Source of the DNA: Ruegeria arenilitoris
GTDB taxonomy: Bacteria > Pseudomonadota > Alphaproteobacteria > Rhodobacterales > Rhodobacteraceae
Assembly (NCBI RefSeq): GCF_013030985.1
Contig: NZ_WPYP01000009.1
Coordinates: 1 to 64,000 of the forward strand
Direction of reading: 5' to 3'
DNA: 64,000 bases
The notes beneath the pieces are model-generated. The model searched no databases and was not told the DNA's origin. It was given only the letters and a program-made list of their open reading frames with translations. The stretch's first letter is position 1. Each line of letters starts with the position of its first letter. Position numbers and translations under genes: made by a program. This document shows, piece after piece, positions 19,063 through 35,749 of the stretch.

Positions 19063-19758
19063 TCAAACCCGAGATTTTTCGAACTTTTCCCAGGCCGATT
19101 GAAACGCCTGAAAATCAAACCCCGGCTGGGTGGCGGCATCCAAGACGATGCGTTCCGTGCTCAGCAGTTTCTGGATCGCGGCCTCAAGCTGATTGACAAC
19201 GTCCTCTGGAACCACAAGCGCACCATGCCTGTCGGCGTGGATCAGATCACCCGGATTCACCGTCAGTCCAAAAACCGACACCGGCGTATCAATCTCACGC
19301 ACATGGACGAAGCCATGGCTGGGTCCGACCGAACCGGCAACCACCGGAAAGCCTTCGGGCAGATCGCCGAGGTCGCGCATGACGCCGTTGGTCAGGGCGC
19401 CCGACATGCCAAAGCCTTTGTGAACGGTGGTGTTGATCTCGCCCCAATAGGCGCCGATGCAGTTTGGATAATCGACATCCTCGATCACCGCGACCGAGGG
19501 CGCAGGCCCTTCGGCCATGTATTTGTAATAGGCCATGCGGCGTTCCCGGATGACCTCTGACGCCTCAGACGGCGGCTGCACCGCAGCAATCTTGGCGGTG
19601 CGGGCATAGCCCAAGATCGCGGGCTCGGACGGGGCCGAGCACAGCATCGTGCCGCGGGTGAACGCGTCGAACCCGCGCTTGCCCTGCGCCACCTCGATGG
19701 CGTTGCAGACGGTGGGTGTATCGACCTTGCGCAACAGTGTCAGAAGGGACGGTGTCAT
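19063..19758 (-). CDS. RraA-type aldolase family protein
   Basis: A 231-residue protein of the RraA / 4-hydroxy-4-methyl-2-oxoglutarate aldolase fold. Characteristic segments are GYARTAKI (near 50), NCIGAYWGEI and GFGMSGALTNGVMRDL, the last with the Gly-rich turn and Arg-Asp pair that bind substrate and a divalent metal in aldolase members. The enzyme group cleaves branched hydroxy-oxo acids, or decarboxylates oxaloacetate, to give pyruvate. It is the last gene of the minus-strand island and overlaps the alpha/beta hydrolase by 4 bp, so a terminal retro-aldol step is plausible. True RNase-E inhibitors (RraA) are shorter (about 160 residues). Confidence 0.85.
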   Translation of the reverse strand: MTPSLLTLLRKVDTPTVCNAIEVAQGKRGFDAFTRGTMLCSAPSEPAILGYARTAKIAAVQPPSEASEVIRERRMAYYKYMAEGPAPSVAVIEDVDYPNCIGAYWGEINTTVHKGFGMSGALTNGVMRDLGDLPEGFPVVAGSVGPSHGFVHVREIDTPVSVFGLTVNPGDLIHADRHGALVVPEDVVNQLEAAIQKLLSTERIVLDAATQPGFDFQAFQSAWEKFEKSRV

Positions 19759-20450
19759 TTGGCCTCCAGCCAGCGGATCAGGGCCGCTGTGGTATCGTTG
19801 GGTTGTTCCAGAGTGGGCAGGTGCCCGGCCTGTTCGATGACTTCAAACCTGCTGTTGGGCAGCAGGTCGTACATGAGCTGGTGCCGCTCGACCGGGCACA
19901 AGCCGTCATAGCGGCCGCACAGAACCAGCGATGCGCCGGGATAAGCTTTCAGTGTTTCAGTCTGATCGGGGCGATCCATCAGCGCGCGGGACTGGCGCAG
20001 GAACACGTCGGGGCCCAGATCTTCGGCCATCGCCATACACAGGTCCAGAATGGCGCCCTGATTGGGTCCGTCGGCCAGATAATTGGGCTTCATCTCGTCC
20101 CGCATCACCTGCCGCAGTTTGCCATCGCGGATGGCTTCCATCTGCGGGCCGCGCCGCTCCTTGACCTCGGGCTTTTCGACCAGAGGATTAGTGTCCAGCA
20201 GGGCCAGCCGTTCAACCCGGTCGGGGGCTTGCCGCACAACCTCCATCGCTACGATACCGCCCATCGACAGCCCTGCCAGCGCAAAGACCGGCGGCGCGTT
20301 GGCCAAGATATCTTCGGCCATCGCCTGCACGCTATCCTGTGTCGCCAGCGGGAAGGTCAGCAAGGGTCTTGACCCGGACAAGGCGGCAATTTGCGGCTGA
20401 TACAGCCGCGCATCGCACATCATGCCGGGCAAAAGAACCAGCGGCGTCAT
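19755..20450 (-). CDS. Alpha/beta hydrolase
   Basis: A 231-residue cytosolic hydrolase of the alpha/beta fold. The nucleophile elbow is GLSMGG with Ser62; the acid is the Asp in CGRYDGLCP (near 180) and the His is in EQAGHLPTLEQP (near 210). LLPGMM near residue 7 is the usual oxyanion-hole region. It likely hydrolyses an ester or lactone. Four-base overlaps with the genes on both sides (RraA-type aldolase downstream, MetE-like upstream) tie it into the island's operon. Confidence 0.88.
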   Translation of the reverse strand: MTPLVLLPGMMCDARLYQPQIAALSGSRPLLTFPLATQDSVQAMAEDILANAPPVFALAGLSMGGIVAMEVVRQAPDRVERLALLDTNPLVEKPEVKERRGPQMEAIRDGKLRQVMRDEMKPNYLADGPNQGAILDLCMAMAEDLGPDVFLRQSRALMDRPDQTETLKAYPGASLVLCGRYDGLCPVERHQLMYDLLPNSRFEVIEQAGHLPTLEQPNDTTAALIRWLEAK

Positions 20451-21571
20451 GCCGAGGCCAACCTCGCGCCATCGGACAGCGCGGTCAGCTTGGCATAGGC
20501 GATATCGGGATCGACCGCGCCAAAGCCCGCAAATGTGCCGAAACCGCAGTCACTGCCCGCAATCACACGCTCAGCGCCGACGATATCGGTGAAACGCGTG
20601 ATGCGCTGCGCGACCAGTTCGGGGTGTTCGACAAAATTCGTCGTGGTGTCGACAACACCGGGCACCAGAACCTTGTCGTCCGGAATCTCGGCCTTGCGGT
20701 CGCGGAACACGGTCCATTCATGCGCGTGCCGCGGGTTCGAGGTTTCGAACAGCACATAACGGGATTTTGTGTTCATCAGGGTCGTGAACACCTTGTCCAT
20801 GGCGATGTCGCAGCAATGCGGGCCTTCGTAATTGCCCCAGCAGATATGCACGCGCACACGATCCTGCGGCACGTTCTGCAGCGCGTGGTTCAGGGCCTCG
20901 ACATGCATGTCGGCGATCTTGACGAATTCCTCGTCGGACAGATCGGTGAACAGCATGTGGCGCGAGAGCGCAAGGTCAGGGCAATCCAGTTGCAAATCCA
21001 GCCCGGCAGCCACGATGGTTTCATATTCGTCCTTCATCGCATCCGCCAGCGCGGGCAGATACGCCTCGCGCGTGGGGTAGAAATCGTTTTGCAGGAACAA
21101 CGAGATGACGCCCGGGGATGCGGCATTCATGAACCCGCGTTCGGCACCGTGCTGCGCCATCGCAGCCTTGAGGTTGGCGATGTCCTTCTCCAACTCGCCC
21201 TGCCCTTTCGAGCGGACCTCGCCGGTGCATTGCGGGCGAGCATATTGCGGCGTGCCACCGTCATCGGCCAGCCGTTGCAGGAAACCGGGAAACATCTTCA
21301 GATCAGCCGGGGCATTGCGCGGGCTGTCGCCCGAAAACCCGGTATAGCGATCCTTGACATAAGTAGCGTAGGATATCTTCGAGGTTTCGCCATCGCTGAC
21401 GATATCCACCCCGGCCTCAACCTGTTTGCGCACGGTCTCGGACACGGCATTCGCCATGCTCGCATCGAAAGCGGCCTGGTCGAAAGGTTCTTCCCGTTCA
21501 CGGGCAAAGATGAAATCCACCACCTCTTGCGAGCGTGGCAGCGACCCGACATGTGTTGTCTTTACGGTCAT
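20447..21571 (-). CDS. Short MetE-like (cobalamin-independent methionine synthase II family) protein
   Basis: A 374-residue protein equal to the C-terminal catalytic half of MetE. The zinc site is present: His242-x-Cys244 in VHICWGNYEG, Glu276 in LFETSNP and Cys342 in AGSDCGFG. The N-terminal substrate region begins TTHVGSLPR. Single-domain members include methyltransferases and thiol alkyltransferases (for example epoxyalkane:coenzyme M transferase), so it need not make methionine. It stands with a SAM methyltransferase and a cupin in the island, which suggests alkyl or methyl transfer from the imported compound, but the substrate is not known. Confidence 0.87.
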   Translation of the reverse strand: MTVKTTHVGSLPRSQEVVDFIFAREREEPFDQAAFDASMANAVSETVRKQVEAGVDIVSDGETSKISYATYVKDRYTGFSGDSPRNAPADLKMFPGFLQRLADDGGTPQYARPQCTGEVRSKGQGELEKDIANLKAAMAQHGAERGFMNAASPGVISLFLQNDFYPTREAYLPALADAMKDEYETIVAAGLDLQLDCPDLALSRHMLFTDLSDEEFVKIADMHVEALNHALQNVPQDRVRVHICWGNYEGPHCCDIAMDKVFTTLMNTKSRYVLFETSNPRHAHEWTVFRDRKAEIPDDKVLVPGVVDTTTNFVEHPELVAQRITRFTDIVGAERVIAGSDCGFGTFAGFGAVDPDIAYAKLTALSDGARLASA

Positions 21572-21581: not shown

Positions 21582-22184
21582 TTAAATCTTGCGTGCCATC
21601 AGCACAGTATGGCTTTGGGTCTCGGGATCCTTGGCCAAAAATCCGGTCAGGATCATCCCGTTTTCCTCAAGGCAGGTGGCATAGGCGGCGGGCGAGAGGG
21701 AGGCGTGATAGACCGGCTCTCCTCCGACCGTTCCCTGCTCCTCACCGGCGCTGGGGCCGACGGTCAGCATCAGCATCCCACCGGGGCGCAGATGGCGCGC
21801 CATGCGGGCGATACAGCCTGTCTGTTCGTCAGCCGTCAGGTGGAAAAAGCTGTTCCAGGCGATAATGCCATCAAATCTCTGATCCAGTTCGAAATCCCGC
21901 ATGTCTGCCTGCAACCAATCGCCATCGGGCCAGCGGTCGCGGGCGATCTCAAGCATGGCTTCGGAAAAATCGACGCCGGTGACGGTGAACCCTTCGGCCT
22001 TGAACCAGCGGGCGATGGGCTCACCAGTTCCGCAACCCAGATCCAGCACGTGATCGCCAGGTTTCAGGCTGGCGGTGAAGCGCGCCAGCCAGCGCGCTTC
22101 GAACAGGGCCTTCGAGCGTTGCGCGTCATAGGCCCTGGCCTGCCGTTCGTAGACGGCATGGGTATCGTCCGGATCGACGGTCAT
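21582..22184 (-). CDS. Class I SAM-dependent methyltransferase
   Basis: A 200-residue Rossmann-type methyltransferase with motif I HVLDLGCGTGEP (45-56), an acidic motif II (VTGVDFS) and QADMRDFE later. ATG 22184 overlaps the cupin stop by 4 bp, which decides the start; a longer upstream frame would lie inside the cupin gene. It is ten bases upstream of the MetE-like gene in the same operon. The acceptor is unknown. Confidence 0.87.
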   Translation of the reverse strand: MTVDPDDTHAVYERQARAYDAQRSKALFEARWLARFTASLKPGDHVLDLGCGTGEPIARWFKAEGFTVTGVDFSEAMLEIARDRWPDGDWLQADMRDFELDQRFDGIIAWNSFFHLTADEQTGCIARMARHLRPGGMLMLTVGPSAGEEQGTVGGEPVYHASLSPAAYATCLEENGMILTGFLAKDPETQSHTVLMARKI

Positions 22185-23140
22185 CCGGCCCAGGTCGCAC
22201 CGGCAGGATCGTCGGTGGCCGTGATACGGTACAGGCCCGCCTGCCCGGTCATGGACGCCGCGATTGTGTAGGTTTCGCCGGGCATGACAACCGCAGTATC
22301 GCCGTTGGACAAGGTGGTGGAATAGCCATTCACGGTAATGCGCCAATGGCCACTTGCCGGCATCAGAACCACAGGCCTTTCGGCTTTGACCGGATCGTTG
22401 ACGGCCGAGCCGCGGGTCAGGAAATCAACCTCGAAACCCGGTTTATCCTTGATGATACCGGTCTCACCGATCACCAGCGCGGGTTTGTCCGCCGCCAGCG
22501 CCATCAGGTCCCAATACCGCGCCACGTATTTGCCGATCACGGCATCGACGGGCACCTCGGGATAGGCTTTCAGCTCTTCCTCGGTCAGCAGAGGCATCGG
22601 GCGCACGTTGTGTGGCAGTTCCTGACCTTTTTTGCTGTCATACAGCACGCCGTTGTCGCCCAACATCAGGCCATGCGCCTGCGCGTCTTCGATCACCTGC
22701 GGTGCCCATGTCACGCCGCCACCGGCATCGTCGCCGCCCAGCATCGACATGATCATGCCGTAGTCGTCGCCCACATTCTCGAACCCGCGGAAGATGCCGG
22801 TCGGGATGTTGAAGATATCACCTTCTTCGGCAATGAACTCTCCTGCGGTGCCATAACGGCCCCAGAAGAACCGCCAACGGCCTTTGGCGACAAAGAAGAC
22901 CTCGGCCGTGGTGTGGCTGTGCAGCGAGTTTCGGCATTTCGGAGGTTGCCCCGCCGCGCCGATATTGAAGCCGATCTTGTCGGTGATGTGGACGTGCTGA
23001 TCGGGGGATTCCGAGACGCCACCACCGACGATGGTGAAGTTCTCTTTTTGGTCGCTGCCCGGGGTGTGGGCGTCGATAAAGGCAGTTTTGCAGGGTTGCA
23101 GCTCGCCATAGCGGACGATGCGTTCTTGGATGGTGCTCAT
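22181..23140 (-). CDS. Two-domain cupin protein
   Basis: A 319-residue protein with an N-terminal cupin whose metal motif is HSHTTAEVFFVAKG (His74, His76, Glu80) and a second, motif-poor cupin at about 240-310 (RPVVLMPASGHWRITVNG...). The layout resembles bicupin dioxygenases and isomerases, with only the first site able to bind metal. It is co-transcribed with the methyltransferase downstream (4-bp overlap). A 154-bp gap with a hairpin separates it from the SnoaL-like gene upstream. Substrate unknown. Confidence 0.8.
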   Translation of the reverse strand: MSTIQERIVRYGELQPCKTAFIDAHTPGSDQKENFTIVGGGVSESPDQHVHITDKIGFNIGAAGQPPKCRNSLHSHTTAEVFFVAKGRWRFFWGRYGTAGEFIAEEGDIFNIPTGIFRGFENVGDDYGMIMSMLGGDDAGGGVTWAPQVIEDAQAHGLMLGDNGVLYDSKKGQELPHNVRPMPLLTEEELKAYPEVPVDAVIGKYVARYWDLMALAADKPALVIGETGIIKDKPGFEVDFLTRGSAVNDPVKAERPVVLMPASGHWRITVNGYSTTLSNGDTAVVMPGETYTIAASMTGQAGLYRITATDDPAGATWAG

Positions 23141-23294: not shown

Positions 23295-24284
23295 TCACAC
23301 GTCCCCGGTCGCCAGAATAATCTGCTTCCAGACCGCCGTTTCATCGAACAGAGTCCATTCGCGGCGCAGCCTGATGTCTCCGCCGATCAGCTCGCCCCAT
23401 TCGGCGTGGCTGATGCCCAGCACATACAGCTCGGCGCCAGTGGGCACGCCGAAGGCACCCCAGCCGTCATGCTTGCCATGCAGGCTCCAACGGATGGCGG
23501 ATCGTGGCGGCATGTTCGGATCGTCGCGCCCGATCTGGTGATGAATGGTGAAAGTCGCACTGGGCATTGCAGCGCGCAGCGACATCCAGAAGCGATCAAC
23601 CGGCTCACGCCCATGGCCGCTTGCACCGCCAGGGTATTCGGTTTGAACCGCACGGTCGTATTCGCGCTGGACCGCGCCCATATCTGCGCCCATCATCCGG
23701 GTCAGAAGATCGGCGTGGCGCTGGCCCCATTCATTGTCATTGCCGCGGCCGGAATACGGACCCTTGATATCGTTGGCAGGGGTCAGCGGTTTGACGCAAC
23801 TCTCCGGCCCGCCTTCCCGCGCGATCAGATCACGGGCGAAATCCTGCGGGTCGCAGCCCATCTGACGCACAACTGCACCGTTGTCACGGATCAGCCATTC
23901 GTCATCGATGGCGTTGTTGCGCGCATGGCAATCGGCCAGAATGCGATAGCGCAGCTTTGCGCCCGTCGCCTGACCGAACATCCCATCACCCAAATGGGTG
24001 GCGGTAGACATGATGCGGTGGCTCGAGAGCATCCCCACTTCCGGAGTGCCGGACCATATCACGTCCTCACCCAGAAGGGTGCGATCGGGAAATTCGGCCA
24101 GCGTGGCCATTGTCGCTCCGATCACGCCCTGATTGCCGGTCGACACGCTGCCGGGCATCCGCACCACGATATCCGATGCGTAATACTCGTGCAGGGTGGA
24201 AATCCCCCTGTCTTCCCAGATCTCTTTGGTGATGCCGATGATGTAGTCCGGAAAATCCCGGAACTTCGGATCGAAGCCCTTCAT
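23295..24284 (-). CDS. SnoaL/NTF2-like protein, two domains
   Basis: A 329-residue protein of the NTF2-like (SnoaL) superfamily, long enough for two domains. The N-terminal half has EYYASDIVVRMPGSVSTG, typical of the first SnoaL helix and strand; the C-terminal half ends in a strand-rich ELYVLGISHAEW...REWTLFDE. It is the most divergent of the four such genes in this island. ATG 24284 is chosen because it overlaps the LacI stop (ATGA) and has AAGGA upstream. SnoaL-fold enzymes need no cofactor and act as cyclases, isomerases, epoxide hydrolases or lyases; no activity can be assigned. Confidence 0.72.
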   Translation of the reverse strand: MKGFDPKFRDFPDYIIGITKEIWEDRGISTLHEYYASDIVVRMPGSVSTGNQGVIGATMATLAEFPDRTLLGEDVIWSGTPEVGMLSSHRIMSTATHLGDGMFGQATGAKLRYRILADCHARNNAIDDEWLIRDNGAVVRQMGCDPQDFARDLIAREGGPESCVKPLTPANDIKGPYSGRGNDNEWGQRHADLLTRMMGADMGAVQREYDRAVQTEYPGGASGHGREPVDRFWMSLRAAMPSATFTIHHQIGRDDPNMPPRSAIRWSLHGKHDGWGAFGVPTGAELYVLGISHAEWGELIGGDIRLRREWTLFDETAVWKQIILATGDV

Positions 24285-25324
24285 GTCTCTGTCCTTTGTG
24301 GGTTCCACCCTTTGGGCAACCGGGCCGAGGTCCGCACGATCAGCGGCCCGTCGATGGCCACTTTGCGCGGTTTTGCCGTTGTCGGGGTGTCGATATGTTC
24401 AAGCAATGCGGTGACGGTTTCCGCCACCATAAGATTGGCGCGTTGTCGGATCGTGGTCAGGTTATAGGCAGGCCACGCCGCGGGCGGCACATCGTCATAG
24501 CCCACGACCGACACGTCCTCGGGCACGCGCAGCCCCAGCTCAAAGCGGATCACATCCATCACTGCCAGCGCCATGTGATCATTTGCGACAAACACCGCAT
24601 CCGGGCGCATGTCTGGCGCAACATCGAACATACGCCGCGCCGCCGCACGGGCCGTTTCCGTGTGAAAGTCGCCGATCTCATGCGCAAACAGGCTCTGGCC
24701 ACTTTCACTTAGTCCGGCCCGGAACCCGGCCTCGCGGTCGCGCTGGGTCGAGGCACCCTGCCAGCCAGCGATATAGCCGATGCGCTCGTGCCCTCCGGCC
24801 AGAAGGAACTCGGCCACCTTGCGCCCGCCCACATAGTTGTCGGATGTGACCGAGGTGATGCCTTCGATATCCTGACTGCGGTTGAACAGCACCACCGGCA
24901 CACCAGCCTGCTGGCAGCGCATCGCAATTTCCGACGACATCGCGACCGAGGCCAGAATGACTCCATCCACCTGATAATCGAGAATTTCCGCCATCACATC
25001 TTCGATGTTCCCGGCCGTCCGTGAGGCCATGAATATCAGGACATGATAGCCCTTTTCCTGCAGCGCATTGGACAGTTTCTCAAGCGCTTCAGGGTAGAAG
25101 TAGTTATCCAGATACCCGACGACCAAACCGATGATCCGGCTTTTCCCCGACACCATTGCCCGGGCCAGAACATTGGGGCGATAACCCAGCTCGGCTGCGG
25201 CCTTGCGCACCTTTTCCTCGGTCTTCTTGCTGACCGACGCGCCGGGCGTAAACACCCGGCTGACCGCCGATTGGCTGACACCGGCCAGTTGCGCAACCTG
25301 AAGTGAGGTAACTTTTTCAGCCAT
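24281..25324 (-). CDS. LacI-family transcriptional regulator
   Basis: A 347-residue repressor. The N-terminal helix-turn-helix TSLQVAQLAGVSQSAVSRVF (5-24) is followed by the hinge LGYRPNVLARAMVSGKS and a periplasmic-binding-protein-like effector domain. LacI proteins bind sugars or related small molecules and release palindromic operators. It lies in the middle of the island, coupled to the SDR upstream (TGATG) and the SnoaL-like gene downstream (ATGA), so it controls itself. Its likely sites are the palindromes at 33745-33762 and 33796-33819. A start at 25339 is possible but its ribosome-binding site is badly placed. Confidence 0.93.
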   Translation of the reverse strand: MAEKVTSLQVAQLAGVSQSAVSRVFTPGASVSKKTEEKVRKAAAELGYRPNVLARAMVSGKSRIIGLVVGYLDNYFYPEALEKLSNALQEKGYHVLIFMASRTAGNIEDVMAEILDYQVDGVILASVAMSSEIAMRCQQAGVPVVLFNRSQDIEGITSVTSDNYVGGRKVAEFLLAGGHERIGYIAGWQGASTQRDREAGFRAGLSESGQSLFAHEIGDFHTETARAAARRMFDVAPDMRPDAVFVANDHMALAVMDVIRFELGLRVPEDVSVVGYDDVPPAAWPAYNLTTIRQRANLMVAETVTALLEHIDTPTTAKPRKVAIDGPLIVRTSARLPKGWNPQRTET

Positions 25325-26088
25325 CAGTCTGCCGTCCATCCTCCGTCAATCAGCATCGAGGTACCCGTGACCAACGCCGAGGCGTCCGAGGCCAGGTAGG
25401 TCACCGCGCCCATGATGTCCTCGACCTCACCAATCCGGTCCAGCTTGATCTTTTCCATGATCCACGCAGCCCGTTCGGGATTGTCGAAGGTGGATTGCGT
25501 CAACGGCGTGCGGATGAAGGTGGGGCACACGGTGTTGATGCGGATGCGCTGCTTGCCCCATTCGATCGCCATGGCTTTGACCATGCCTTCAAGCCCGTGC
25601 TTGGTCGCGCAATACAGCGCCCGGTCGACACCGCCGACATGACCCATCTGGCTTGAGATATGGATGATCGACCCCGGCTTGCCCGCCGCCATCAGCGCCT
25701 TGGCCGCGTAGGATGACAGGAAATAGGCCGAGCGCAGGTTGACGTTTGTCACTGCGTCGAAATCCTCGGGCAAGGTCTCAATTGCCGGACCATGACGCGC
25801 GGTTCCGGCCGAGTTCACCACCACATCAAAGACGCGACCATCGAAAAGGCCACGCAGTGCCTCAAGATCGCTCTGATCCACTACGGCGGCTTCGGCCGAC
25901 CAGCCTTGCGCCTGAAACGCGGCAACCGTTTCGTTCAAACGATCCGCCCCACGTGCGGCGCAGACCACATGCGCGCCCGCTTCGGCCAGAGCCACGGCAC
26001 AACCCTGCCCGATGCCCGAGGACGCGCCGGTGACAAGGGCGGTCTTGCCTGCCAGGGAAAACGAAGGGGTGCGGGGCAGGTCACTCAT
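25324..26088 (-). CDS. SDR-family oxidoreductase
   Basis: A 254-residue classical short-chain dehydrogenase. It has the NAD(P)-binding TGASSGIG (20-27), the NSAG motif (92-95) and the catalytic Ser145/Tyr159/Lys163 (HISSQMG, YCATK). Asp or Arg specificity for NAD or NADP cannot be fixed from the sequence alone (VVCAARGADR follows strand 2, which leans to NADP). It would oxidise an alcohol or sugar carbon of the imported compound. The start overlaps the SnoaL-like gene stop by one base and its stop overlaps the LacI start. Confidence 0.92.
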   Translation of the reverse strand: MSDLPRTPSFSLAGKTALVTGASSGIGQGCAVALAEAGAHVVCAARGADRLNETVAAFQAQGWSAEAAVVDQSDLEALRGLFDGRVFDVVVNSAGTARHGPAIETLPEDFDAVTNVNLRSAYFLSSYAAKALMAAGKPGSIIHISSQMGHVGGVDRALYCATKHGLEGMVKAMAIEWGKQRIRINTVCPTFIRTPLTQSTFDNPERAAWIMEKIKLDRIGEVEDIMGAVTYLASDASALVTGTSMLIDGGWTAD

Positions 26089-27140
26089 CAGCTCATTCCA
26101 TCCGGGATATTGATACGCCCCATGTTGCGGGCCTTGTTGAATTCCCGCAGTCGGGCGAAAACGTCAACGCCAAGCTGACGATACGCGTCCAGAAGATCGA
26201 CCAGTACCCAGTTTTCGCGGATCTTGCCGTTTTCCACCCGCCAGAAATCGAGGCTGCGCATGGTGATCCGCTTGCCCGAGGGCGCGATACCCATCCAGCC
26301 ATCATGGGTCACAGTCTGGATCATGTTAGGCCAGCCGGTCACGGCGGCATAGTCGCCATCCCCGAAAAAGTGATAGGTGATGTCGTCGATATATTGCCCG
26401 CGGTCCGGCATCCCGTTGAGGAACGGAATCTGGTGCCAGTTGCGAAACCCGGAAAACCCGCGCCCGGTACCGATACCCGCCGGGCCGTACCAGTTCATCC
26501 GAGGATGCCAGAACCGCTCGGGCTCCATCACCTCCGGCCCGCCCTGCGAGGGGTGCTTCTTCAGGTGTTCAAGCATGTCGATGATGTGCTGGCAGGCCGC
26601 CTGCCCTTTGGCCGCATCATAGGGGCCGGGCACAAAACCGTTCTGCGTGGCCGGTCCGGGCACATGCCATTCGCGGCCAAGGCTGGGGGCCATCGGCCAG
26701 GCATTCGCCTGCATCATCACCTCGGGGATGTCCCACAGGGCCTGCATCTCGACCACTTTGCCATCTTCGAAACGGTAGAATTCGTGGAACCGCATCGTCA
26801 CCTGATGGCCGGTCGGCGGGATATCCAGCCACGGCCCGGTGAAGGTGCCGGTATAGTAACCGCCACATCCGACCCAATCGGCCCCATGCTCATCCGGGCC
26901 AGCCATGACGATATAGTCGCGGCGTTCCAGATCGGGCCAGGCGGACAGCAGGTCTTTGTAGGCGGTATCGTAAAACGCGTCGCTGCCGGGGCTGTCGCCA
27001 AAGGGATGGCACAGCCTGAAAACAGCGTCAGGGGCGCTGACATCTGCCAGCGCCCTGCGCACACCGTCCTCGCTGAAGTCGTACATCGCCGTCCGAAGCG
27101 GTGCGATCAGCGATTTGTGATGTGTGTGTTTGTCACTCAT
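26088..27140 (-). CDS. SnoaL/NTF2-like protein, two domains
   Basis: A 350-residue protein made of two SnoaL-like domains. Each half ends in the same pattern: [21 protein letters not shown] (about 108-128, shown in part) and then [21 protein letters not shown] near 295, each followed by an acidic strand and a Gln-containing helix. The repeat shows an internal duplication. It is coupled to the HisD-like gene upstream (4-bp overlap) and the SDR downstream. No activity can be named; cofactor-free isomerase, hydratase, cyclase or lyase chemistry fits the fold. Confidence 0.8.
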
Positions 27141-28479: not shown

Positions 28480-29010
28480 TCAGTTTTCGGGCCGGGGCGG
28501 CGTTTTTTCCCCCCGGTCAAATGCTTCCCAGCCTTCTCCCTGGAACAGATCGACACCCAGCTGCGCCGCGACATGGGCGAAATCGACATTCACCCAGTTG
28601 TCGACGATCTTGCCATCGACCACTTTCCAGAAATCCATATAACGGATCTCGACCCGTTTGCCGGTGGGTGCGATACCCAGAAACTCACCCGAATGCGTGG
28701 CTTCCTGACGACCAAACGCCGCCGCCCATTCCCCCATGTAAAGGCGCGCCTCGTCGATGCAGGTCTTGTCCGAGAACGCGGCCTGAAACGGGCGCTGCCA
28801 GTTGTCTTGAAATTCTTCCAGACCGGTCTTGGTGCCGCAGCCCTGATTGCCCATCCAGCGAAAACCCTGGGCAAAAAACTCACCAATATCGTCGATGCGG
28901 TGGTCGTTCAGACCGTCCACCATGGTTTCAATAACACGGCGTGTCTCATCCGTTTTGCTGAGATCCGTGTCGCGGGTCAGAACCGCTTGTTCGGGGCGAG
29001 AACCTTTCAT
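28480..29010 (-). CDS. SnoaL-like protein, one domain
   Basis: A 176-residue single-domain SnoaL/ester-cyclase-like protein. The C-terminal pattern [20 protein letters not shown] (20 of the residues near 112-131) is almost the same as that of the two-domain neighbours, so all come from one ancestral domain. It sits between the ABC importer genes and the HisD-like gene, 11 bp upstream of the latter. Function unknown beyond fold. Confidence 0.82.
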
Positions 29011-29138: not shown

Positions 29139-30293
29139 TCAGCCTTTCACCGCGCCTGCGGTCAGACCGCTGACAATCTGGCGCTGGAAGATCAGAACAA
29201 GGAAGATCAGCGGCGCAGTGATCGACACGGCGGCAGCCACGGCAACAACCTGATCGGTCGTGGTGGTTTCGCGGTTGAACATACCGACGATGGCCGGAAC
29301 CATGGTCTGGTTCTGCGCGTCCAGCAGCAATGAGGTCACGAGGATGTCGTTGTAGGCCAGCAGGAAGCTGAACAGCCCGGTGGTGATCACCCCCGGCCAC
29401 ATCACCGGCATAATCACGCGGCGGAAGGCCTGAAAATGGTTGCACCCGTCCACACGTGCGGCCTCGTCCAATTCCGCCGGAATGTTCTGGAAAAATGAAC
29501 GCAGCATCCAGATCGTGAACGGCTGGTTGATCGCTACAAGCACCGCGATCACCGCAAACGGCTTACCATACAACGTCGGCGCGTTTTCACCCAGAATCGG
29601 CGCCAGCCATTCCGACGAGCTGATGAAAACCGGCAGATAGCTGGCGACTAACGCCGAGGGCGGCAAAGCCCGAAAGACCAAAGCAACGATCAGAAGCCAG
29701 AAGGCCAGGTTTGATCCTGATCGTGCCAGCCCGTATCCCGCCAGCGTCCCAACCGACAGCGACAAGACAACGACCCCTGTGGTTACGATCAGCGAGTTTT
29801 TGAAGTTGTTCGAGAAACCTCGGTCGATCCAGACAGTTTGGTAGTGTTCGGTCGTCAGGCCCAGAATGTCGCGCCCCAACGGTCCGAAGAGGGGGTTCAA
29901 TACGCTCAGAATAGCAGGCAGGATTACGAAAAATACCACTAGAAAGCCGACGGCGGCAGCGAGAATACCGATCACCCAGCCAAGCCATTCCTGACCTTCC
30001 TTTGAATAGGCTTTGATCATTACGGGCATTTTCTTGGACACCAGAGCAATGGTTCCCCAGATCACGGCAATACCTAGGATAATATCAAGCAGCGACAGCC
30101 CGTTGCCGTTGGACAGAGTAGTTGGTCCGAAAATCACGTTCAGGGCGTTACTGTCGAAGGCATCAACCGGGGATTTGAAGCTCATCACTGTGATCCAGAA
30201 GATCGGGAAGATGGCAACAAGGCACCAGAAAGCCAGAAAGATGTTCGAGGTCAGCCGCAGGCTGAGCGGTTGGCGAAGTGCACGCGAGGACAT
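29139..30293 (-). CDS. CUT1 ABC transporter permease (MalG-like) with extra segment
   Basis: Second membrane subunit of the island's importer. The EAA loop ELDEAARVDGCNHFQAFRRV binds the ATPase. At 384 residues it is about 100 longer than usual MalG-type permeases. The extra part lies between the first helix (18-38) and the conserved NNFKNSLIVT region: residues 55-145 hold two added hydrophobic segments (about 67-85 and 104-126). This insertion is odd and could change the membrane topology. It directly abuts the MalF-like gene upstream. Confidence 0.88.
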   Translation of the reverse strand: MSSRALRQPLSLRLTSNIFLAFWCLVAIFPIFWITVMSFKSPVDAFDSNALNVIFGPTTLSNGNGLSLLDIILGIAVIWGTIALVSKKMPVMIKAYSKEGQEWLGWVIGILAAAVGFLVVFFVILPAILSVLNPLFGPLGRDILGLTTEHYQTVWIDRGFSNNFKNSLIVTTGVVVLSLSVGTLAGYGLARSGSNLAFWLLIVALVFRALPPSALVASYLPVFISSSEWLAPILGENAPTLYGKPFAVIAVLVAINQPFTIWMLRSFFQNIPAELDEAARVDGCNHFQAFRRVIMPVMWPGVITTGLFSFLLAYNDILVTSLLLDAQNQTMVPAIVGMFNRETTTTDQVVAVAAAVSITAPLIFLVLIFQRQIVSGLTAGAVKG

Positions 30294-31316
30294 TCAGTGA
30301 CCTCCTTTGTGATCGCGCCATGTCCGGCGCAGCGGGAAGATAAGCAGGATGGCAATACCGATCATGGTCAGCATGGCGCTGGCCGAAGCCCGGCTGATCG
30401 AGCGGTTGCCCGCCTGATCCGGCACAAGGAAGTCATAAGTCAGCCATTGCAGTGAGATGACATAGCCCTGGCTGGCGAAACCGACGATCTCTTCGAACAC
30501 CCGGTAGCTGTCCATCAGGTGGATCATCGACACGAAAATGATCAGCGGCATCAGGTGAGGGATCACGATGTATTTCATCCGCTGCCAACGGGTCGCGCCG
30601 TCGATCACGGCACTTTCCAGACTGTCCTGATTGACGGTCTGCAGACCGGCATAGAACACAATGGCAGCAAAGGGTGCCACGTGCCACACGCGGTAGAGCA
30701 TCATCAGGATCTCAATGGTCCAGGCTTGCGCAAACAGAGCGATATCGCGGTTCAGCCACCATTCCAGCAGCGCGGTCAGGATACCATCACCGCGAAATAG
30801 CCAGTTGACCGACAGCACACCGATCACCGGGGTGATGATAAAGGGCAGCAAAGAGATGAAGATCACCGGTCCGCGTATCGCCTGAGCGGCGTTGTTGATC
30901 ATGACCGCAATGCCCAGCCCGCAGACAATGACCAAGGGCAAGGTGATCAGGGTGAAAGTCAGGGTGAACCGCAATGCCTTCCAGAAATCAATCGTTGTCA
31001 ACGCGCTTATGCTGCCATCTGTGATCGCGCGCCAGGCCCGTTCGGGTTCCAGCACGTTGCGATAGCTTTGCAGCCCGACATATTGCGTCTGGGTGATGAC
31101 CTCGCCGTGTTCATCCAAGACGGGCTGAGACTTTTCTTCGGTCACACAGGTCTGGGTCAGGAAACCGGGGGTGCAGGTTTCCACCTCGACCGTCTCATAG
31201 ATCGGCTGGGTGATGTAAAAGCTCTGCTTGAACACGCTGACCAGCGGGAAAGCGATGAAGAGAAGCATCATAAAGACAGAGGGGCCAACAAAGGCGGCAA
31301 ATGTCCGGAAATTCAT
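30294..31316 (-). CDS. CUT1 ABC transporter permease (MalF-like)
   Basis: First membrane subunit of the importer, 340 residues with about six helices. The EAA loop is ESAVIDGATRWQRMKYIVIP. A periplasmic segment after helix 1 carries Cys48 and Cys57 (CTPGFLTQTC), which could form a disulfide and is not usual in this family. Its stop is next to the start of the MalG-like gene. A strong hairpin (31359-31378) lies between it and the binding-protein gene upstream. Confidence 0.92.
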   Translation of the reverse strand: MNFRTFAAFVGPSVFMMLLFIAFPLVSVFKQSFYITQPIYETVEVETCTPGFLTQTCVTEEKSQPVLDEHGEVITQTQYVGLQSYRNVLEPERAWRAITDGSISALTTIDFWKALRFTLTFTLITLPLVIVCGLGIAVMINNAAQAIRGPVIFISLLPFIITPVIGVLSVNWLFRGDGILTALLEWWLNRDIALFAQAWTIEILMMLYRVWHVAPFAAIVFYAGLQTVNQDSLESAVIDGATRWQRMKYIVIPHLMPLIIFVSMIHLMDSYRVFEEIVGFASQGYVISLQWLTYDFLVPDQAGNRSISRASASAMLTMIGIAILLIFPLRRTWRDHKGGH

Positions 31317-31388: not shown

Positions 31389-32600
31389 TCAGTTGTTGAC
31401 CAGACCTGCTTCTTTCGCAGCAGTCAGATAAGCGGCTTCGATGTCGGCCAGAGTGGTTGATGCGTCTTTTGCACCAGTCAGATAGTCGGCCAGACCGTTG
31501 CCCAGCGCGCTGTGCAGAACGCCCATCGGGGCCGACGCAGGGTACGCCTTGGCACCGTTTTCTGCCGACGCTGCGGCACCGGCTGCCAGATCACCCGGCG
31601 TGTAGGCGGGGCTCAGCCAGACTGCGACGTCGTTGTTGGCGCTGACCATGTCACCGTCGATGCCTTCCAGAACCAGACGGAATGCGGCATCCGCTTCTTC
31701 GTCGCTCATGTTCGCAGCCAGAACGACACCATCCCACCAGATAGTGGTCGATGGCGCAGCCGCACCCATCGGCGCCGATGCCATGGTCACCTTGCCGACA
31801 ACCTGGCTTTCGGCTTCGTCGTTCATCGCTGCGGCACGGCTGGCCCACAGGTTCGCCATGGCGATCTTGCCCTGCTGGAACTGCTGCTGAACATAGGTCG
31901 AGTCGGATACCAGATATTCAGGGTCCATGAACTCGGTCATCGCTTTCATGGTCTCAAGCGCTTTGACGCCCTGTTCGTTGTTGATCGAGGGCATGTTGCC
32001 TTCGCCAAAGAACTGACCGCCTTCGCCCATGTACATGTTGACGAATTCCTGAGCCAGGTTCCAACCGGTCTTGAAGGTGCCGCCGATCGGATACTCCATG
32101 ACGCCAGCTTCCTTGATCTTGGCAGCGGCGGCCAGAACGTCGTCATAGGTCTTGGGCTCTTCAATGCCCAGATCGGCCAGAACGTCGTTGCGGTACATCA
32201 GGTGCTGCGCGTTCACCATCATGGCAATCGCCATGACCTTGCCGTCGACCTTGATCAGCTGGTTCGGCAGCAGGTCCTGACCATATTTTTCAACCAGATC
32301 ATCCAGCGGACGCAGCGAGCCTGCGTTCAGCAGCGGAATCATCGTCTCGTTGGCGACGCCACCAATCTGATACAGCGAGGGGTTTGCAGCAAACGCCTCG
32401 GGCTGCTTCTCGCGGAACTCCTGGTCCAGCGAGGCGCTGAAGTTGCCGCATTCGGCCATCGCATCGGTGACGGCCTTCCAGGCCTCGAAGCCAGCCGAGA
32501 GCGATTTCAGCGGCACTTCGTTTTCATACGCACATTCGGCCCATACGCCGGTTGCTGCGAGGGACATGGCGCCTGCCATGAAGAGTGATTTGAGTTTCAT
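31389..32600 (-). CDS. ABC transporter substrate-binding protein (family 1, sugar type)
   Basis: Periplasmic receptor of the importer, 403 residues. Residues 1-21 are a signal peptide (MKLKSLFMAG...GVWA) and the mature protein begins ECAYENE. It has the layout of family-1 extracellular solute-binding proteins, with many Trp and acidic residues in the binding cleft (for example IWWDGVV near 275). Cys23 and Cys51 may form a disulfide. The gene follows the ATPase gene, with GGGAGAA as ribosome-binding site. CUT1 receptors bind oligosaccharides, polyols or glycerol-phosphates; the ligand here is unknown. Confidence 0.92.
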   Translation of the reverse strand: MKLKSLFMAGAMSLAATGVWAECAYENEVPLKSLSAGFEAWKAVTDAMAECGNFSASLDQEFREKQPEAFAANPSLYQIGGVANETMIPLLNAGSLRPLDDLVEKYGQDLLPNQLIKVDGKVMAIAMMVNAQHLMYRNDVLADLGIEEPKTYDDVLAAAAKIKEAGVMEYPIGGTFKTGWNLAQEFVNMYMGEGGQFFGEGNMPSINNEQGVKALETMKAMTEFMDPEYLVSDSTYVQQQFQQGKIAMANLWASRAAAMNDEAESQVVGKVTMASAPMGAAAPSTTIWWDGVVLAANMSDEEADAAFRLVLEGIDGDMVSANNDVAVWLSPAYTPGDLAAGAAASAENGAKAYPASAPMGVLHSALGNGLADYLTGAKDASTTLADIEAAYLTAAKEAGLVNN

Positions 32601-32648: not shown

Positions 32649-33722
32649 TTATGCCCGAATGGGCTGTTTGTGGGATTGCTCCCCGATCCGCGCACCGCTT
32701 TCAGCTTCAAAGAGGTGACAGATATCCGTTGGCACCGCGAACGACACCATCTCGCCGATCTCGGCGCGGAAGGCTTTGTCGGCCTTGACCGATACCAGCG
32801 CGCCACCGACCCGGACCGAGATCATGGTGGCATCGCCCAACAGCTCCAGCGTATAGATCGGCGCGGTGATCTGGCCCTGCCCTTCGGCAAGGCTGGCGTC
32901 TTCAGCGCGGAAGCCCAGCGTCATCGGGCCGTCCGGTGCATCGACCGGAATCTCAACATGTTCAGCGCGGAACACGCCGCCCGACACCTGACCGTCCATC
33001 AGGTTCATCGCCGGTGAGCCGATGAAGCTGGCGACAAACGTATTCGCAGGACGGTCATAAATCTCGGTCGGGCTGCCTACCTGCTGCACCACACCTTTTT
33101 TCATGACCACAACACGATCGGCCAGGGTCATGGCCTCGATCTGATCGTGGGTCACATAGATGGTGGTTACCGCCAGTTCGTGGCTGAGGTTCTTGATCTG
33201 CGCCCGGGTCGAAACCCGCAGTTTGGCGTCGAGGTTCGACAGCGGCTCGTCCATCAGGAACACGTTGGGTTCGCGGACGATGGCACGGGCCAGCGCCACA
33301 CGCTGCCGCTGACCACCGGACAGTTCGGCAGGCTTGCGGTGCAGGAATTCGTCCAGCTCGACCATCGCGCTGGCACGGCGCACCTTTTCGTCATGGCTTG
33401 CCGGGTCGATGCCGCGCACTTTCAGCGGAAAGCGGATGTTCTCATAGACGTTCATGTTGGGATAGAGCGCATAGCTCTGGAACACCATCGCCACGTCGCG
33501 GTCCTTGGGCTCCAGATCGTTGACCACTTTGCCGTCGACCAGAATTTCGCCTTCGGTCACATCCTCAAGACCGGCTATCATCCGCATCGTGGTGGTCTTG
33601 CCGCAGCCTGACGGGCCCAGTAGCACCAGAAACTCGCGATCCGCGATGGTCAGGTCGAAATTGTGAACCCCGACAAAGCTGCCCCAGCGTTTGCCGACGT
33701 TGCGCAGTTGAATTTCCGCCAT
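32649..33722 (-). CDS. CUT1 ABC transporter ATP-binding protein (UgpC/MsmK type)
   Basis: The 357-residue ATPase that drives the importer. Walker A is GPSGCGKTTT, the signature LSGGQRQR and Walker B VFLMDEP; the C-terminal part (FRAEDAS..., LELLGDATMISV) is the regulatory TOBE/OB region of MalK-type ATPases. ATG 33722 with AGGGGG upstream is chosen; an upstream in-frame start at 33761 lies inside the proximal operator and before a Shine-Dalgarno-free stretch. It is the first gene of the 14.7-kb minus-strand run and is preceded by the promoter and operators at 33745-33819. Confidence 0.94.
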   Translation of the reverse strand: MAEIQLRNVGKRWGSFVGVHNFDLTIADREFLVLLGPSGCGKTTTMRMIAGLEDVTEGEILVDGKVVNDLEPKDRDVAMVFQSYALYPNMNVYENIRFPLKVRGIDPASHDEKVRRASAMVELDEFLHRKPAELSGGQRQRVALARAIVREPNVFLMDEPLSNLDAKLRVSTRAQIKNLSHELAVTTIYVTHDQIEAMTLADRVVVMKKGVVQQVGSPTEIYDRPANTFVASFIGSPAMNLMDGQVSGGVFRAEHVEIPVDAPDGPMTLGFRAEDASLAEGQGQITAPIYTLELLGDATMISVRVGGALVSVKADKAFRAEIGEMVSFAVPTDICHLFEAESGARIGEQSHKQPIRA

Positions 33723-33744
33723 GGTGCCCCCTGCAAGGATTCGC

Positions 33745-33762
33745 TTTGCATACGTTTGCAAA
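33745..33762. promoter_or_regulatory. LacI-type operator O2 (one mismatch)
   Basis: TTTGCATACGTTTGCAAA is an 18-bp palindrome with a central CG and one mismatched pair. It begins one base past the predicted minus-strand -10 box (33763-33768), so it covers the transcript start of the importer operon. It shares the TTTGCATACG half-site with the perfect palindrome 54 bp away. Confidence 0.8.
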
Positions 33763-33792
33763 ACTGTATTCTCCAGTAATCATTTCTGGCAA
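33763..33792 (-). promoter_or_regulatory. Predicted promoter of the importer operon
   Basis: On the minus strand, TTGCCA (33792-33787) and TACAGT (33768-33763) are 18 bp apart. The promoter lies exactly between the two palindromes, so bound repressor at the downstream site would block initiation and a loop between both sites would strengthen this. Promoter boxes were picked by eye. Confidence 0.6.
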
Positions 33793-33795
33793 GAC

Positions 33796-33819
33796 TTTTT
33801 TGCATACGTATGCAAAAAA
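33796..33819. promoter_or_regulatory. LacI-type operator O1 (perfect 24-bp palindrome)
   Basis: The core TTTGCATACGTATGCAAA is perfectly symmetric about a central CG, and the symmetry extends through three more T/A pairs on each side to 24 bp. This is the classic form of a LacI-family operator. It lies between the divergent ATPase (starting 33722) and SnoaL-like gene (starting 33882), so it can control both. The LacI protein encoded at 24281-25324 is the obvious candidate. Confidence 0.88.
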
Positions 33820-33881
33820 CCTTTAACTTGCGATTCTCAATCGCTTAAATCCAAAGCAAGCCATCAACGAAACGGTGCAAC

Positions 33882-34883
33882 GTGAGCTTTCAGGAAGAAA
33901 AAACACTCGTCTCCTCGTTCTACGAGGCCCTCGATTCATCCAGCGAAACGAATCTGCCTGACATGTTTGGGCAATTCTGTGCTGACGATTTGCTGTGGCG
34001 CGGCTTTCATCCGTTCGACGAAATCACCGGTGCAGAATCGGTGGCGCGAGCATTCTGGCAGCCGTTGAAATCCAGCCTGAAACGGATGCAACGCCGCCAG
34101 GATGTCTTTTTCGCGGGCACCAACTCTCTGGAAACGGGTGCGGATGTCTGGGTGGTTTCGATGGGTCATCTGATGGGCCTGTTCGACGCGCCATGGCTGG
34201 GGATTCGCCCAACCGGCAAGATGGCTTTTCTGCGCTATTGCGAGTTTCACCGGGTCGCGGACGGCAAGATTGCCGAGACCGCGATGTATTTCGACATCCC
34301 CCATCTGATGGTGCAGGCGGGGCAAAACCCGTTTCCGCCGCAAACTGCGGCCCATCTGATCCAACCCGGTCCCTTGACCCATGACGGTCTGCTGCATGAT
34401 GATCAGCCCGAGGAAGAAGGCCGCAAGACGCTGGCGGCGATCAACGCCATGATCTCGGACCTTGGACAGTGGAACAGCGGCCTGTCGCTTGAGGACGAAC
34501 TGGCCCGCACATGGCATGACGACATGATCTGGTGGGGGCCCGAAGGCATCGGCGCCACCTACACGATCGAACGCTATGCCAAGCAGCATTCCGGCCCGTT
34601 TCGTGCGTCATTCACCGAGCGCTCCAAGACCAAACATATCTGCCGTCTGGCCGAGGGGCACTATGGCGGCTTTTTCGGCTGGCCCAATTTCACTGCTGTT
34701 CCGACAGGTGGCTTCATGGGCATGCCCGCCACCGGCAAGCCCGGCGAATTCCGGGTGATCGACATCTACCGCCGGGCGGGGGACAAACTGGCCGAGAACT
34801 GGATTTTCATCGACCTTCTGCATTTTTGGAAACAACAGGGTGTCGATATTCTGGCCCGCACGACAGGGATTGAAACGCCATGA
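33882..34883 (+). CDS. SnoaL/NTF2-like protein, two domains
   Basis: A 333-residue two-domain SnoaL-like protein, first gene of the divergent plus-strand unit. Both halves carry the island's shared pattern: RPTGKMAFLRYCEFHRVADG (near 110) and PATGKPGEFRVIDIYRRAGD (near 283), each followed by a Gln-Gly motif. It starts at GTG 33882 with no clear Shine-Dalgarno sequence. Its stop overlaps the amidohydrolase start (ATGA). Function unknown; cofactor-free isomerase, hydrolase or lyase chemistry fits the fold. Confidence 0.8.
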   Translation: MSFQEEKTLVSSFYEALDSSSETNLPDMFGQFCADDLLWRGFHPFDEITGAESVARAFWQPLKSSLKRMQRRQDVFFAGTNSLETGADVWVVSMGHLMGLFDAPWLGIRPTGKMAFLRYCEFHRVADGKIAETAMYFDIPHLMVQAGQNPFPPQTAAHLIQPGPLTHDGLLHDDQPEEEGRKTLAAINAMISDLGQWNSGLSLEDELARTWHDDMIWWGPEGIGATYTIERYAKQHSGPFRASFTERSKTKHICRLAEGHYGGFFGWPNFTAVPTGGFMGMPATGKPGEFRVIDIYRRAGDKLAENWIFIDLLHFWKQQGVDILARTTGIETP

Positions 34884-35749
34884 GGATTGATGCGCATCAT
34901 CACCTGTGGGACCTGAACGCTGTGGAATATCCATGGCTTATGGAAAAGGGCGCGGTGCGGTTCTTTGGCGATCCCACCCCGATTCAGCGCAACTATCTGC
35001 TGCCTGAATTCCGCAAAGATGCCAAGGCCGCTGGGTTTACTGCCTCAGTCCACATTCAGGTCGGCGCCGCCGATCCATGGTCCGAGGCGCAATGGGTGCA
35101 GTCCGTCGCTGATCAATATCCCGACTGGCCGCTGGTGCAGGTCGCCTTTTGTGACCTGACCGCGGACGACATGACCGAACAGTTGGACCGGCTGCAAACC
35201 CTGCCCTCGCTGCGCGGGGTGCGCCAGATCATCGGTCGCGCCCCGGGTGAGGATCAGCTGTCGGGCACCAACGACCTGTTGGACAGTCCAAAGTTTCTGG
35301 CCGGCCTGAAACAACTGGGCGATCGCGGCCTGTCCTTTGACCTGCAATTATTGCCCGAGTTGATGGAACGGACCGCCGCCGTTCTGGATCAGGCTCCTGC
35401 AACGCAGGTGGCGCTGTGCCATGCCGGGTCACCGCATGACCGATCCGAACCGGGGCTGGAGGGCTGGGCCAAGGCGTTGCAACCCCTCTCGGCGCTGCCG
35501 CAGGTCACCTGCAAACTCTCCGGCCTTGGTATGTTCGATCACGGCTGGACTGCGGATAGTGTCCGACCCATCGTCGAAACCTGCCTGACCCAATTTGGGC
35601 CCGAACGCTGCATGTTCGGGTCTAATTTTCCGGTCGACAGCCTGTCATCCAATTACACGGACCTGATCGCCAGACACAAAGCCCTGGTCCCCGACACCGA
35701 TCACGACCAGGTTTTCGGGCTAACTGCACAGAAGTTCTATCACATGTAA
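34880..35749 (+). CDS. Amidohydrolase family 2 / sugar-lactonase-like protein (COG3618 type)
   Basis: A 289-residue TIM-barrel metal-dependent hydrolase. The N-terminal MRIDAHHHLWD (His6, His8) and C-terminal FGSNFPVD (acidic residue) match the COG3618 group, whose known members open lactones of sugars (fuconolactone, rhamnonolactone) or 2-pyrone-4,6-dicarboxylate. It is coupled to the SnoaL-like gene before it. With an SDR and a HisD-like dehydrogenase in the same island, hydrolysis of a lactone formed by alcohol oxidation is a reasonable role. Confidence 0.85.
   Translation: MRIDAHHHLWDLNAVEYPWLMEKGAVRFFGDPTPIQRNYLLPEFRKDAKAAGFTASVHIQVGAADPWSEAQWVQSVADQYPDWPLVQVAFCDLTADDMTEQLDRLQTLPSLRGVRQIIGRAPGEDQLSGTNDLLDSPKFLAGLKQLGDRGLSFDLQLLPELMERTAAVLDQAPATQVALCHAGSPHDRSEPGLEGWAKALQPLSALPQVTCKLSGLGMFDHGWTADSVRPIVETCLTQFGPERCMFGSNFPVDSLSSNYTDLIARHKALVPDTDHDQVFGLTAQKFYHM

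Follow-up and report, generated by a model that had tools for sequence, protein, structure and literature searches.

Which compound is taken up and degraded by a cluster of 17 genes around a CUT1 importer in Ruegeria arenilitoris? The cluster lies at positions 19063 to 35749 of a 64,000-nucleotide stretch of contig NZ_WPYP01000009.1 (assembly GCF_013030985.1), here called the window, which is part of a 4.76-Mb genome (contig C33 of genome G000). It also encodes a LacI regulator, four SnoaL-fold proteins and several putative enzymes. We conclude that the system is a catabolic regulon with a pathway not matched to a known one. As explanation of the whole we favor a catabolic regulon that is controlled by LacI, is dedicated to one purpose, occurs chiefly in Rhodobacteraceae and would act through the reactions proposed below; to this complete explanation we assign a probability of roughly 0.5.

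Conservation of the cluster and its candidate operators

Protein families were assigned by Pfam and NCBIfam profile searches of the window proteins. An earlier note on this DNA had called 17 open reading frames, all of which exist at or very near the places assigned to them. Its family calls hold as well, i.e., CUT1 importer, LacI, short-chain dehydrogenase (SDR), Histidinol_dh, Amidohydro_2/COG3618, four SnoaL, cupin, S-adenosylmethionine (SAM) methyltransferase, Meth_synt_2, alpha/beta hydrolase and RraA-like. It had also proposed a search of other genomes for the same neighborhood. We scanned contigs with SnoaL_A (26088-27140), whose nearest named relatives came from Ruegeria (Rhodobacteraceae); 338 stretches matched, 333 encode a relative and the best 80 loci were kept. 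Gene counts out of 59 refer to the kept named loci with both 10-kb flanks (59 of the best 80), and in the counts for SnoaL genes paralogues of this family may substitute for each other. The cluster consists of the following features:

19063..19758, minus strand: RraA-type class II pyruvate aldolase, proposed last step (PF03737, E 5.8e-18; 52/59 loci)
19755..20450, minus strand: alpha/beta hydrolase, PcaD-like (Abhydrolase_6, 1.6e-12; Ser-Asp-His triad intact; 55/59 loci)
20447..21571, minus strand: MetE-like zinc methyltransferase, catalytic half only (PF01717, 7.7e-13; 51/59 loci)
21582..22184, minus strand: SAM-dependent methyltransferase, accessory (PF13649, 4.3e-22; 19/59 loci)
22181..23140, minus strand: bicupin, proposed dioxygenase (Cupin_2, 8.5e-10; 58/59 loci)
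23295..24308, minus strand: SnoaL_D, tandem SnoaL-fold protein (PF07366, 7.5e-14, and PF12680, 3.9e-9; 59/59 loci)
24281..25339, minus strand: LacI-family regulator (PF00356, 5.6e-13; candidate operators present; 58/59 loci)
25324..26088, minus strand: SDR, KduD/gluconate-dehydrogenase-like (PF13561, 1.5e-55; 57/59 loci)
26088..27140, minus strand: SnoaL_A, tandem SnoaL-fold protein (PF07366, 1.2e-30; predicted model; 59/59 loci)
27137..28468, minus strand: HisD-like NAD/Zn alcohol dehydrogenase, separate motif class GKFPM (PF00815, 2.4e-130; 58/59 loci)
28480..29010, minus strand: SnoaL_C, single-domain SnoaL-fold protein (PF07366, 1.3e-22; 59/59 loci)
29139..30293, minus strand: CUT1 permease, MalG-like (PF00528, 5.6e-19; 57/59 loci)
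30294..31316, minus strand: CUT1 permease, MalF-like (PF00528, 1.4e-6; GlcT/UgpA-like, under NCBIfam cut-off; 57/59 loci)
31389..32600, minus strand: substrate-binding protein (PF01547, 1.7e-22; 57/59 loci)
32649..33722, minus strand: MalK/UgpC-type ATPase (NF008653, 455.7 vs cut-off 432 bits; 57/59 loci)
33745..33762, no strand assigned: candidate LacI-type operator O1 (one mismatch to palindrome)
33799..33816, no strand assigned: candidate LacI-type operator O2 (perfect 18-bp palindrome TTTGCATACGTATGCAAA)
33882..34883, plus strand: SnoaL_B, tandem SnoaL-fold protein, divergent (PF07366, 2.9e-19; 59/59 loci)
34880..35749, plus strand: COG3618 amidohydrolase, accessory, strand-8 Asp replaced by Asn (PF04909, 9.8e-36; 31/59 loci)

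The neighborhood was found to be conserved. All 14 core genes, i.e., the cluster without the MetE-like, COG3618 and SAM methyltransferase genes, were kept in 50 of the 59 loci, and 45 had the MetE-like gene in addition. Gene order and strand were near-constant across loci. Because 50 fully flanked loci keep the complete core, the gene arrangement is not due to chance. The SAM methyltransferase, with its 19 occurrences, is dispensable. The flanks varied, with no unassigned open reading frame family common to more than seven loci, and the window neighbors CoxG (35770-36222) and an epimerase (17102-18085) each recurred in just three loci within the stretches fetched.

The 14 junctions of the minus-strand run comprise five overlaps of 1-4 bp, two of 16 and 28 bp, and seven gaps of 0-154 bp, the 154 bp separating SnoaL_D from the cupin; the divergent SnoaL_B/COG3618 pair overlaps by 4 bp. 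The statement that most junctions overlap by 1-4 bp was hence too strong, as this applies to 5/14 in the minus run. GC content per 2-kb block was 57-62% inside the cluster and 57-65% outside, and the term "island", which had been used for the cluster, found no compositional support.

In a sample of 248 genomes from the window's family, 102 had a SnoaL_A relative (E 1e-30); the corresponding counts were 13/289 for the class and 14/349 for the phylum (E 1e-70; overlapping samples). Of 72,556 plasmid records, 14 had one (E 1e-40), among them those of Vibrio pelagius and the haloarchaeon Halobellus limi. As about two fifths of the sampled family genomes carry a relative of this marker, the consumed compound is likely a common nutrient. 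The MetE-like query matched in 39/120 family genomes. If these 120 are taken to be genomes G000-G119 of the SnoaL_A survey, 34 of 39 SnoaL_A-positive genomes also have a MetE-like gene and five genomes have the MetE-like gene only.

MalK and SnoaL_B diverge from a 159-bp region that holds two 18-bp candidate sites, TTTGCATACGTATGCAAA and a copy with one mismatch, 54 bp apart. The candidate operator is a palindrome with a central CG and is placed in the putative promoter of the genes it would regulate, as expected of a LacI-type site; from this we infer that it is bound by the LacI protein. O1 and O2 are the sole sites at up to three mismatches in the whole genome, compared with a chance expectation of about 0.01 site per 20 kb at up to three mismatches and 0.08 at up to four. 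MalK and SnoaL_B were both full-length in 47 named loci; upstream of MalK, at least one site was found in 43 of these and two sites in 37. A site with up to two mismatches was present in 43 of 101 relatives (same genus 41/54, family 1/7, class 1/40); a reversed control pattern gave matches in 4/101.

Sites were also found where the genes are arranged differently. Genome G001 has a main cluster made up of the genes from importer to SnoaL_D together with SnoaL_B-like and COG3618 genes. A single site lies in the divergent region of this cluster, and its 20 kb lack the cupin, MetE-like, hydrolase and RraA genes. The G001 cupin is on another contig and the sole MetE-like gene about 28 kb away, and each has a site (two and three mismatches) about 60-110 bp upstream. 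A site precedes HisD in the mini-cluster HisD-SDR-LacI-MetE of G065 and in Halomonas, and in Vibrio, Rhizobium and Ensifer it lies between divergent cluster genes. No site at up to four mismatches was seen in L151 (Halobellus), L185 (G084) and L186, the last of which ends short of its promoter. Since the operator is unique to the divergent promoter in the window's genome and recurs in front of the cupin and MetE-like genes that are displaced in G001, the importer, HisD, cupin and MetE-like genes almost certainly form one regulon.

Two independent adjoining operons, an importer-LacI part and a cupin-to-RraA part, would be another way to read the cluster, and the 154-bp gap before the cupin might hold an internal promoter. 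This is very improbable given the joint conservation across the 59 loci, the lack of any operator site in the 300 bp upstream of the cupin in all 47 loci, and the common operator at the displaced G001 genes. The earlier note had described one unit with its own importer and regulator, a view it would have given up if the cupin-to-RraA part were regulated apart and never occurred with the importer. The cupin, RraA and MetE-like genes occur in 58, 52 and 51 of the 59 loci, compared with 57 for each importer gene, and in G001 the displaced cupin and MetE-like gene each carry the LacI-type site. Joint conservation and candidate operators thus support the one-unit description, and separate regulation of the 3' part was rejected on both grounds. 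Six more operator-like sites in the 47 loci lie outside the regions upstream of MalK and the cupin and may mark extra regulon members.

Predicted enzymes of the regulon

Residue conservation was analyzed in rows made up of the window protein and its relatives at ≥85% coverage, picked from 100 loci. The closest solved structures to the HisD-like enzyme are HpsN and (R)-dihydroxypropanesulfonate (DHPS) dehydrogenase. With HpsN (sulfopropanediol 3-dehydrogenase; 8v35, 8wwe) it has the family and the catalytic Glu-His and Asp-Lys equivalents in common, i.e., the stretches [SY]EHV and GDKVIGTNH are intact in 83/83 rows (equivalents of HpsN Glu318, His319 and Asp352), and a four-electron oxidation from alcohol to acid would be expected. 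This might point to a DHPS-like sulfonate pathway with the HisD-like protein as HpsN. According to PMC11382572, however, the substrate-site motif of HpsN is GRY[AS]H, which ends in the sulfonate-binding His, and the HisD equivalent is GSAPL, whereas the cluster enzyme has GKFPM in 81/83 rows, and GKYPL and GGYPM in one row each. Moreover, the genome encodes three HisD-family paralogues with three motifs, GKFPM, GRYSH and GLASY, and the cluster's Pfam and NCBIfam hits include no SuyAB, Xsc or CuyA sulfolyase family. A sulfonate pathway is therefore extremely improbable, and the HpsN reading was ruled out by the motif together with the separate GRYSH paralogue.

The GLASY paralogue (C31:74492) has the top PF00815 score of the three, so that the cluster copy, which lacks GSAPL, is not the best-scoring one. 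In a tree of 22 cluster HisD-like proteins and five others, the cluster members formed one clade with support 0.994. The designation "HpsN/HisD-like" is hence right as to the HisD family (PF00815) and wrong as to the HpsN type. From its sequence, the HisD-like enzyme is a motif class and clade of its own, not HpsN, and the regulon would add a specificity class to the HisD/HpsN family. The copy on an Ensifer plasmid has GKYPM. In three loci, L061 (610-1857), L192 (5187-6431) and L184 (4433-5665), the cluster is accompanied by another group of HisD-like genes, whose substrate-site motif is GRYPL or GRFPL.

SnoaL_A, B and D carry two SnoaL domains each and SnoaL_C one. The model of SnoaL_A (predicted local distance difference test score, pLDDT, 89.7; predicted template modeling score 0.91) has the SnoaL/NTF2 fold in each half, and its fold matches include IdmH, TerC, PhzA/B and polyether epoxide hydrolases. 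IdmH, AclR, SnoaL2, TerC and PhzA/B, whose fold matches each half, are biosynthetic enzymes; PhzA/B perform imine chemistry on an aminocyclohexenone. In contrast, the cluster SnoaL proteins are mostly tandem and belong to a catabolic regulon; in Halobellus, five SnoaL genes follow one another. The set would thus serve catabolism and not antibiotic synthesis. The cleavage of C-C bonds in lignin-derived diarylpropanes, a reaction that the earlier note had raised and that is suggested by the SnoaL fold and by nothing else in the cluster, is a highly unlikely role for it: the cluster's Pfam hits hold no aromatic ring-hydroxylating or extradiol dioxygenase family, the importer is of sugar type, and one carrier is an archaeon from a saltern and another a bacterium from an Arctic offshore site.

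In the MetE-like protein the zinc-ligand equivalents H242, C244, E276 and C342, whose roles we take to be those in Escherichia coli MetE, are present in 78/78 rows. The zinc pattern HxC, E, C is thus common to this protein and to the catalytic half of MetE in the methionine synthase II family. However, it scores under every NCBIfam methionine synthase cut-off among those listed and has DCPD where MetE usually has DEPA. Its place in the regulon would make it a MetE-like methyltransferase of catabolism.

The bicupin has an HxHxxxE metal motif (H74, H76, E80) that is invariant in 86/86 rows. A likeness to acireductone-type dioxygenases had been predicted before the profile search, in which acireductone dioxygenase was the top PDB match (E 1.3e-4), followed by quercetin and 3-hydroxyanthranilate dioxygenases. 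The model (pLDDT 88.5) is a bicupin fold with best matches to the latter two. The cluster cupin thus resembles acireductone dioxygenase and quercetin 2,3-dioxygenase in motif, weak profile match and bicupin fold, but it lacks their third His, and identity is 10-16% in the fold matches listed.

For the RraA-type protein, E107, R128 and D129 were conserved in 72/72 rows. R128 and D129, which align with 3noj, are presumably the active-site Arg-Asp of the RraA/LigK family. The cluster protein thus has the family and the Arg-Asp pair in common with LigK (4-carboxy-4-hydroxy-2-oxoadipate aldolase) and RraA, whereas the NCBIfam model for this aldolase gave it 36.4 of 304.5 bits, far under the cut-off. 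L108 has an HpcH/HpaI aldolase next to RraA; the stretch read of L143 has such an aldolase but no RraA. The triad S62, D182 and H210 of the alpha/beta hydrolase is present in 80/80 rows; matches to PcaD-type models (1e-21 to 4e-25) were under cut-off.

Candidate substrates and proposed pathway

The importer and the LacI regulator are of sugar type, and among the PDB relatives of the binding protein are sugar binders, sorbitol binders and SmoF. The substrate could hence be a sugar, sugar acid or cyclitol that is O-methylated or modified in another way and is degraded by an oxidative, non-phosphorylating route; to this class as a whole we give something short of an even chance. The SDR and the HisD-like enzyme would oxidize, COG3618 and the alpha/beta hydrolase would open lactones, the SnoaL proteins would be dehydratases or isomerases, and RraA would release pyruvate and an aldehyde. 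This is in line with a binding protein akin to sugar and sulfoquinovosyl-glycerol binders, an SDR close to KduD and gluconate dehydrogenases (it matches NCBIfam kduD under cut-off), L-fucono-1,5-lactonase as the nearest named model of COG3618 (113.6 of 400 bits, cut-off missed), and a GMC oxidoreductase in some variants. However, among the sugar-type models only the UgpC ATPase passes its cut-off, neither a sugar-acid dehydratase nor a kinase family is among the Pfam hits of the core, and the four SnoaL proteins are left unexplained. Moreover, the strand-8 Asp of COG3618, an Asp in 4dlf, is Asn (N249) in 39/39 rows, and the gene is found in 31 loci and missing in 28. Because of this replacement, lactonase activity should not be assumed. 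Accordingly, of the reaction classes read from the gene families earlier, uptake, alcohol oxidation, alkyl transfer and retro-aldol cleavage are supported, whereas it is doubtful that COG3618 opens lactones. Arsenosugars were considered as well.

We propose instead a sequence of reaction types whose order we regard as having about an even chance of being correct. The CUT1 importer would take up a polar compound, on which the SnoaL-fold proteins, as an upper module, may perform cofactor-free entry chemistry. The HisD-like enzyme would oxidize a CH2OH group next to C-OH or C-NH2 to the carboxylate, the MetE-like zinc enzyme would transfer a substrate methyl group to a thiol, the bicupin would cleave the carbon skeleton with O2, and the RraA-type aldolase would split a 4-hydroxy-2-oxo acid into pyruvate and an oxo acid. 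SDR, alpha/beta hydrolase and COG3618 would contribute redox or hydrolysis steps that have no fixed position in this order.

Mycosporine-like amino acids and gadusols are ultraviolet sunscreens of algae, corals and cyanobacteria, with 5-hydroxy-5-hydroxymethyl-2-methoxycyclohexenone as the gadusol/mycosporine core. Guided by chemistry and habitat only, we tentatively favor mycosporine-like amino acids or (deoxy)gadusol as single substrate, although we consider this rather unlikely to be the exact answer. Oxidation of the gadusol core would yield a tertiary hydroxy acid and demethylation a cyclic reductone. If the reductone were split beside the former methoxy carbon, 4-carboxy-4-hydroxy-2-oxoadipate would form, a substrate for LigK-type aldolases, from which the aldolase would release pyruvate and oxaloacetate. 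The upper module would strip amino acids from mycosporines. A complete pathway, in which SnoaL proteins strip amino acids, the new HisD class oxidizes the ring hydroxymethyl group, the MetE-like enzyme directly demethylates the 2-methoxy group and the cupin opens the reductone to 4-carboxy-4-hydroxy-2-oxoadipate, is still somewhat less likely to hold in every step. Carriers come from a saltern (Halobellus), coral (Ruegeria SCSIO 43209 from Galaxea) and seawater, but also from soil, and habitat thus agrees only loosely with mycosporines. According to a review (PMC3083659), amino-acid removal from mycosporines has been suggested for Vibrio harveyi, and bacterial conversion of shinorine and porphyra-334 has been reported.

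Several findings weigh against this pathway and substrate. The HisD-like protein exceeds the NCBIfam histidinol dehydrogenase cut-off (TIGR00069, 417.9 vs 243.8 bits; HpsN proteins were not scored alongside). In the cupin, the third metal His is Arg118 in 86/86 rows; as the 3-His-1-Glu site is therefore incomplete, its metal and O2 chemistry is uncertain. The acireductone dioxygenase match is weak and spans 44 residues, and the cupin model also matches bicupins generally, including seed storage proteins and oxalate decarboxylase. The MetE-like gene was absent genome-wide in 8/8 carriers with the cupin directly before the hydrolase, and in one plasmid record, in a run that had no positive control and in which some genomes were partial; the methyl step hence is not universal or is done otherwise. 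L094 and L112, also without a MetE-like gene in the stretch at hand, were outside this eight-carrier check. CUT1 importers and LacI regulators fit sugars better than zwitterionic mycosporines. Some carriers are from soil (Paracoccus alcaliphilus, Ensifer), and the Vibrio carrier is V. pelagius, not V. harveyi, of which the survey included no genome.

In a literature search that covered sources other than preprints and most subscription journals, we found no paper on this gene combination and no known pathway to which the neighborhood is already assigned, an outcome that would have spoken against a new system. Within the same coverage, no mycosporine catabolic genes were named in the titles and abstracts surveyed, which are part of larger result sets. 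With an operator unique in the genome, a deletable cluster and few candidate compounds, the substrate question is testable in culturable marine bacteria. If sunscreens are indeed degraded, the regulon would provide genes for the bacterial shinorine and porphyra-334 conversion reported in PMC3083659.

Variant clusters and neighboring genes

Plasmids of Vibrio and of an archaeon from a saltern carry reduced or altered relatives of the regulon. V. pelagius has four SnoaL genes and an importer beside sarcosine oxidase and PurU, with no HisD or cupin in the 29 kb read. The Halobellus limi plasmid (L151, 281-16989) carries an importer, an aldehyde dehydrogenase, five SnoaL genes and a MetE-like gene (41%), with a GcvT-like gene nearby; GcvT-like, sarcosine oxidase and PurU are thus methyl-handling neighbors of these relatives. 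Conversely, G065 and G084 keep HisD, SDR and MetE-like genes but, in the stretches read, no SnoaL gene, and general ATPases are the only importer relatives there. G077 has an importer, one weak SnoaL relative, an amidase, HisD, SDR, cupin and MetE-like genes. Because variant clusters keep one gene set without the other, they suggest two modules, i.e., an upper one (importer, SnoaL proteins) that would prepare the imported compound and a lower one (HisD, SDR, MetE-like, often cupin) that would degrade a common core.

Two importer types alternate between loci: of 80 full-length binding proteins, 45 have 36-46% and 35 have 63-98% identity to that of the window. None of the extra genes in and around the variants is a consistent neighbor that would name the substrate; GMC oxidoreductase, GST, MFS_2, TonB receptors, amidase, ZnuA, PNPOx and further families each occur in a few loci at most. 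Halomonas has a TRAP component, an FAD oxidoreductase, a 2-hydroxyacid dehydrogenase, an aminotransferase and an HpcH aldolase in addition. TonB-dependent receptors lie inside the distant variants L134 (11928-14432) and L143 (13828-16416), which suggests a substrate that needs active outer-membrane uptake there. The amidase of G077 (L184, 3035-4390) is located between LacI and HisD, with just the one weak SnoaL relative nearby, and might stand in for the SnoaL proteins. SnoaL_D is doubled in tandem in L073, L076, L145 and L189. In L061 (3271-20631), two importers and two GKFPM HisD genes adjoin, as if two versions of the cluster had fused.

In the window, a tRNA-Leu (cag) is found at 18285-18371 (plus strand), about 0.7 kb past the RraA end of the cluster. 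At the other end and outside the conserved cluster, TctA, TctB and TctC of a tripartite tricarboxylate transporter are encoded at 36336-39504 (minus strand), beside the CoxG-like gene.

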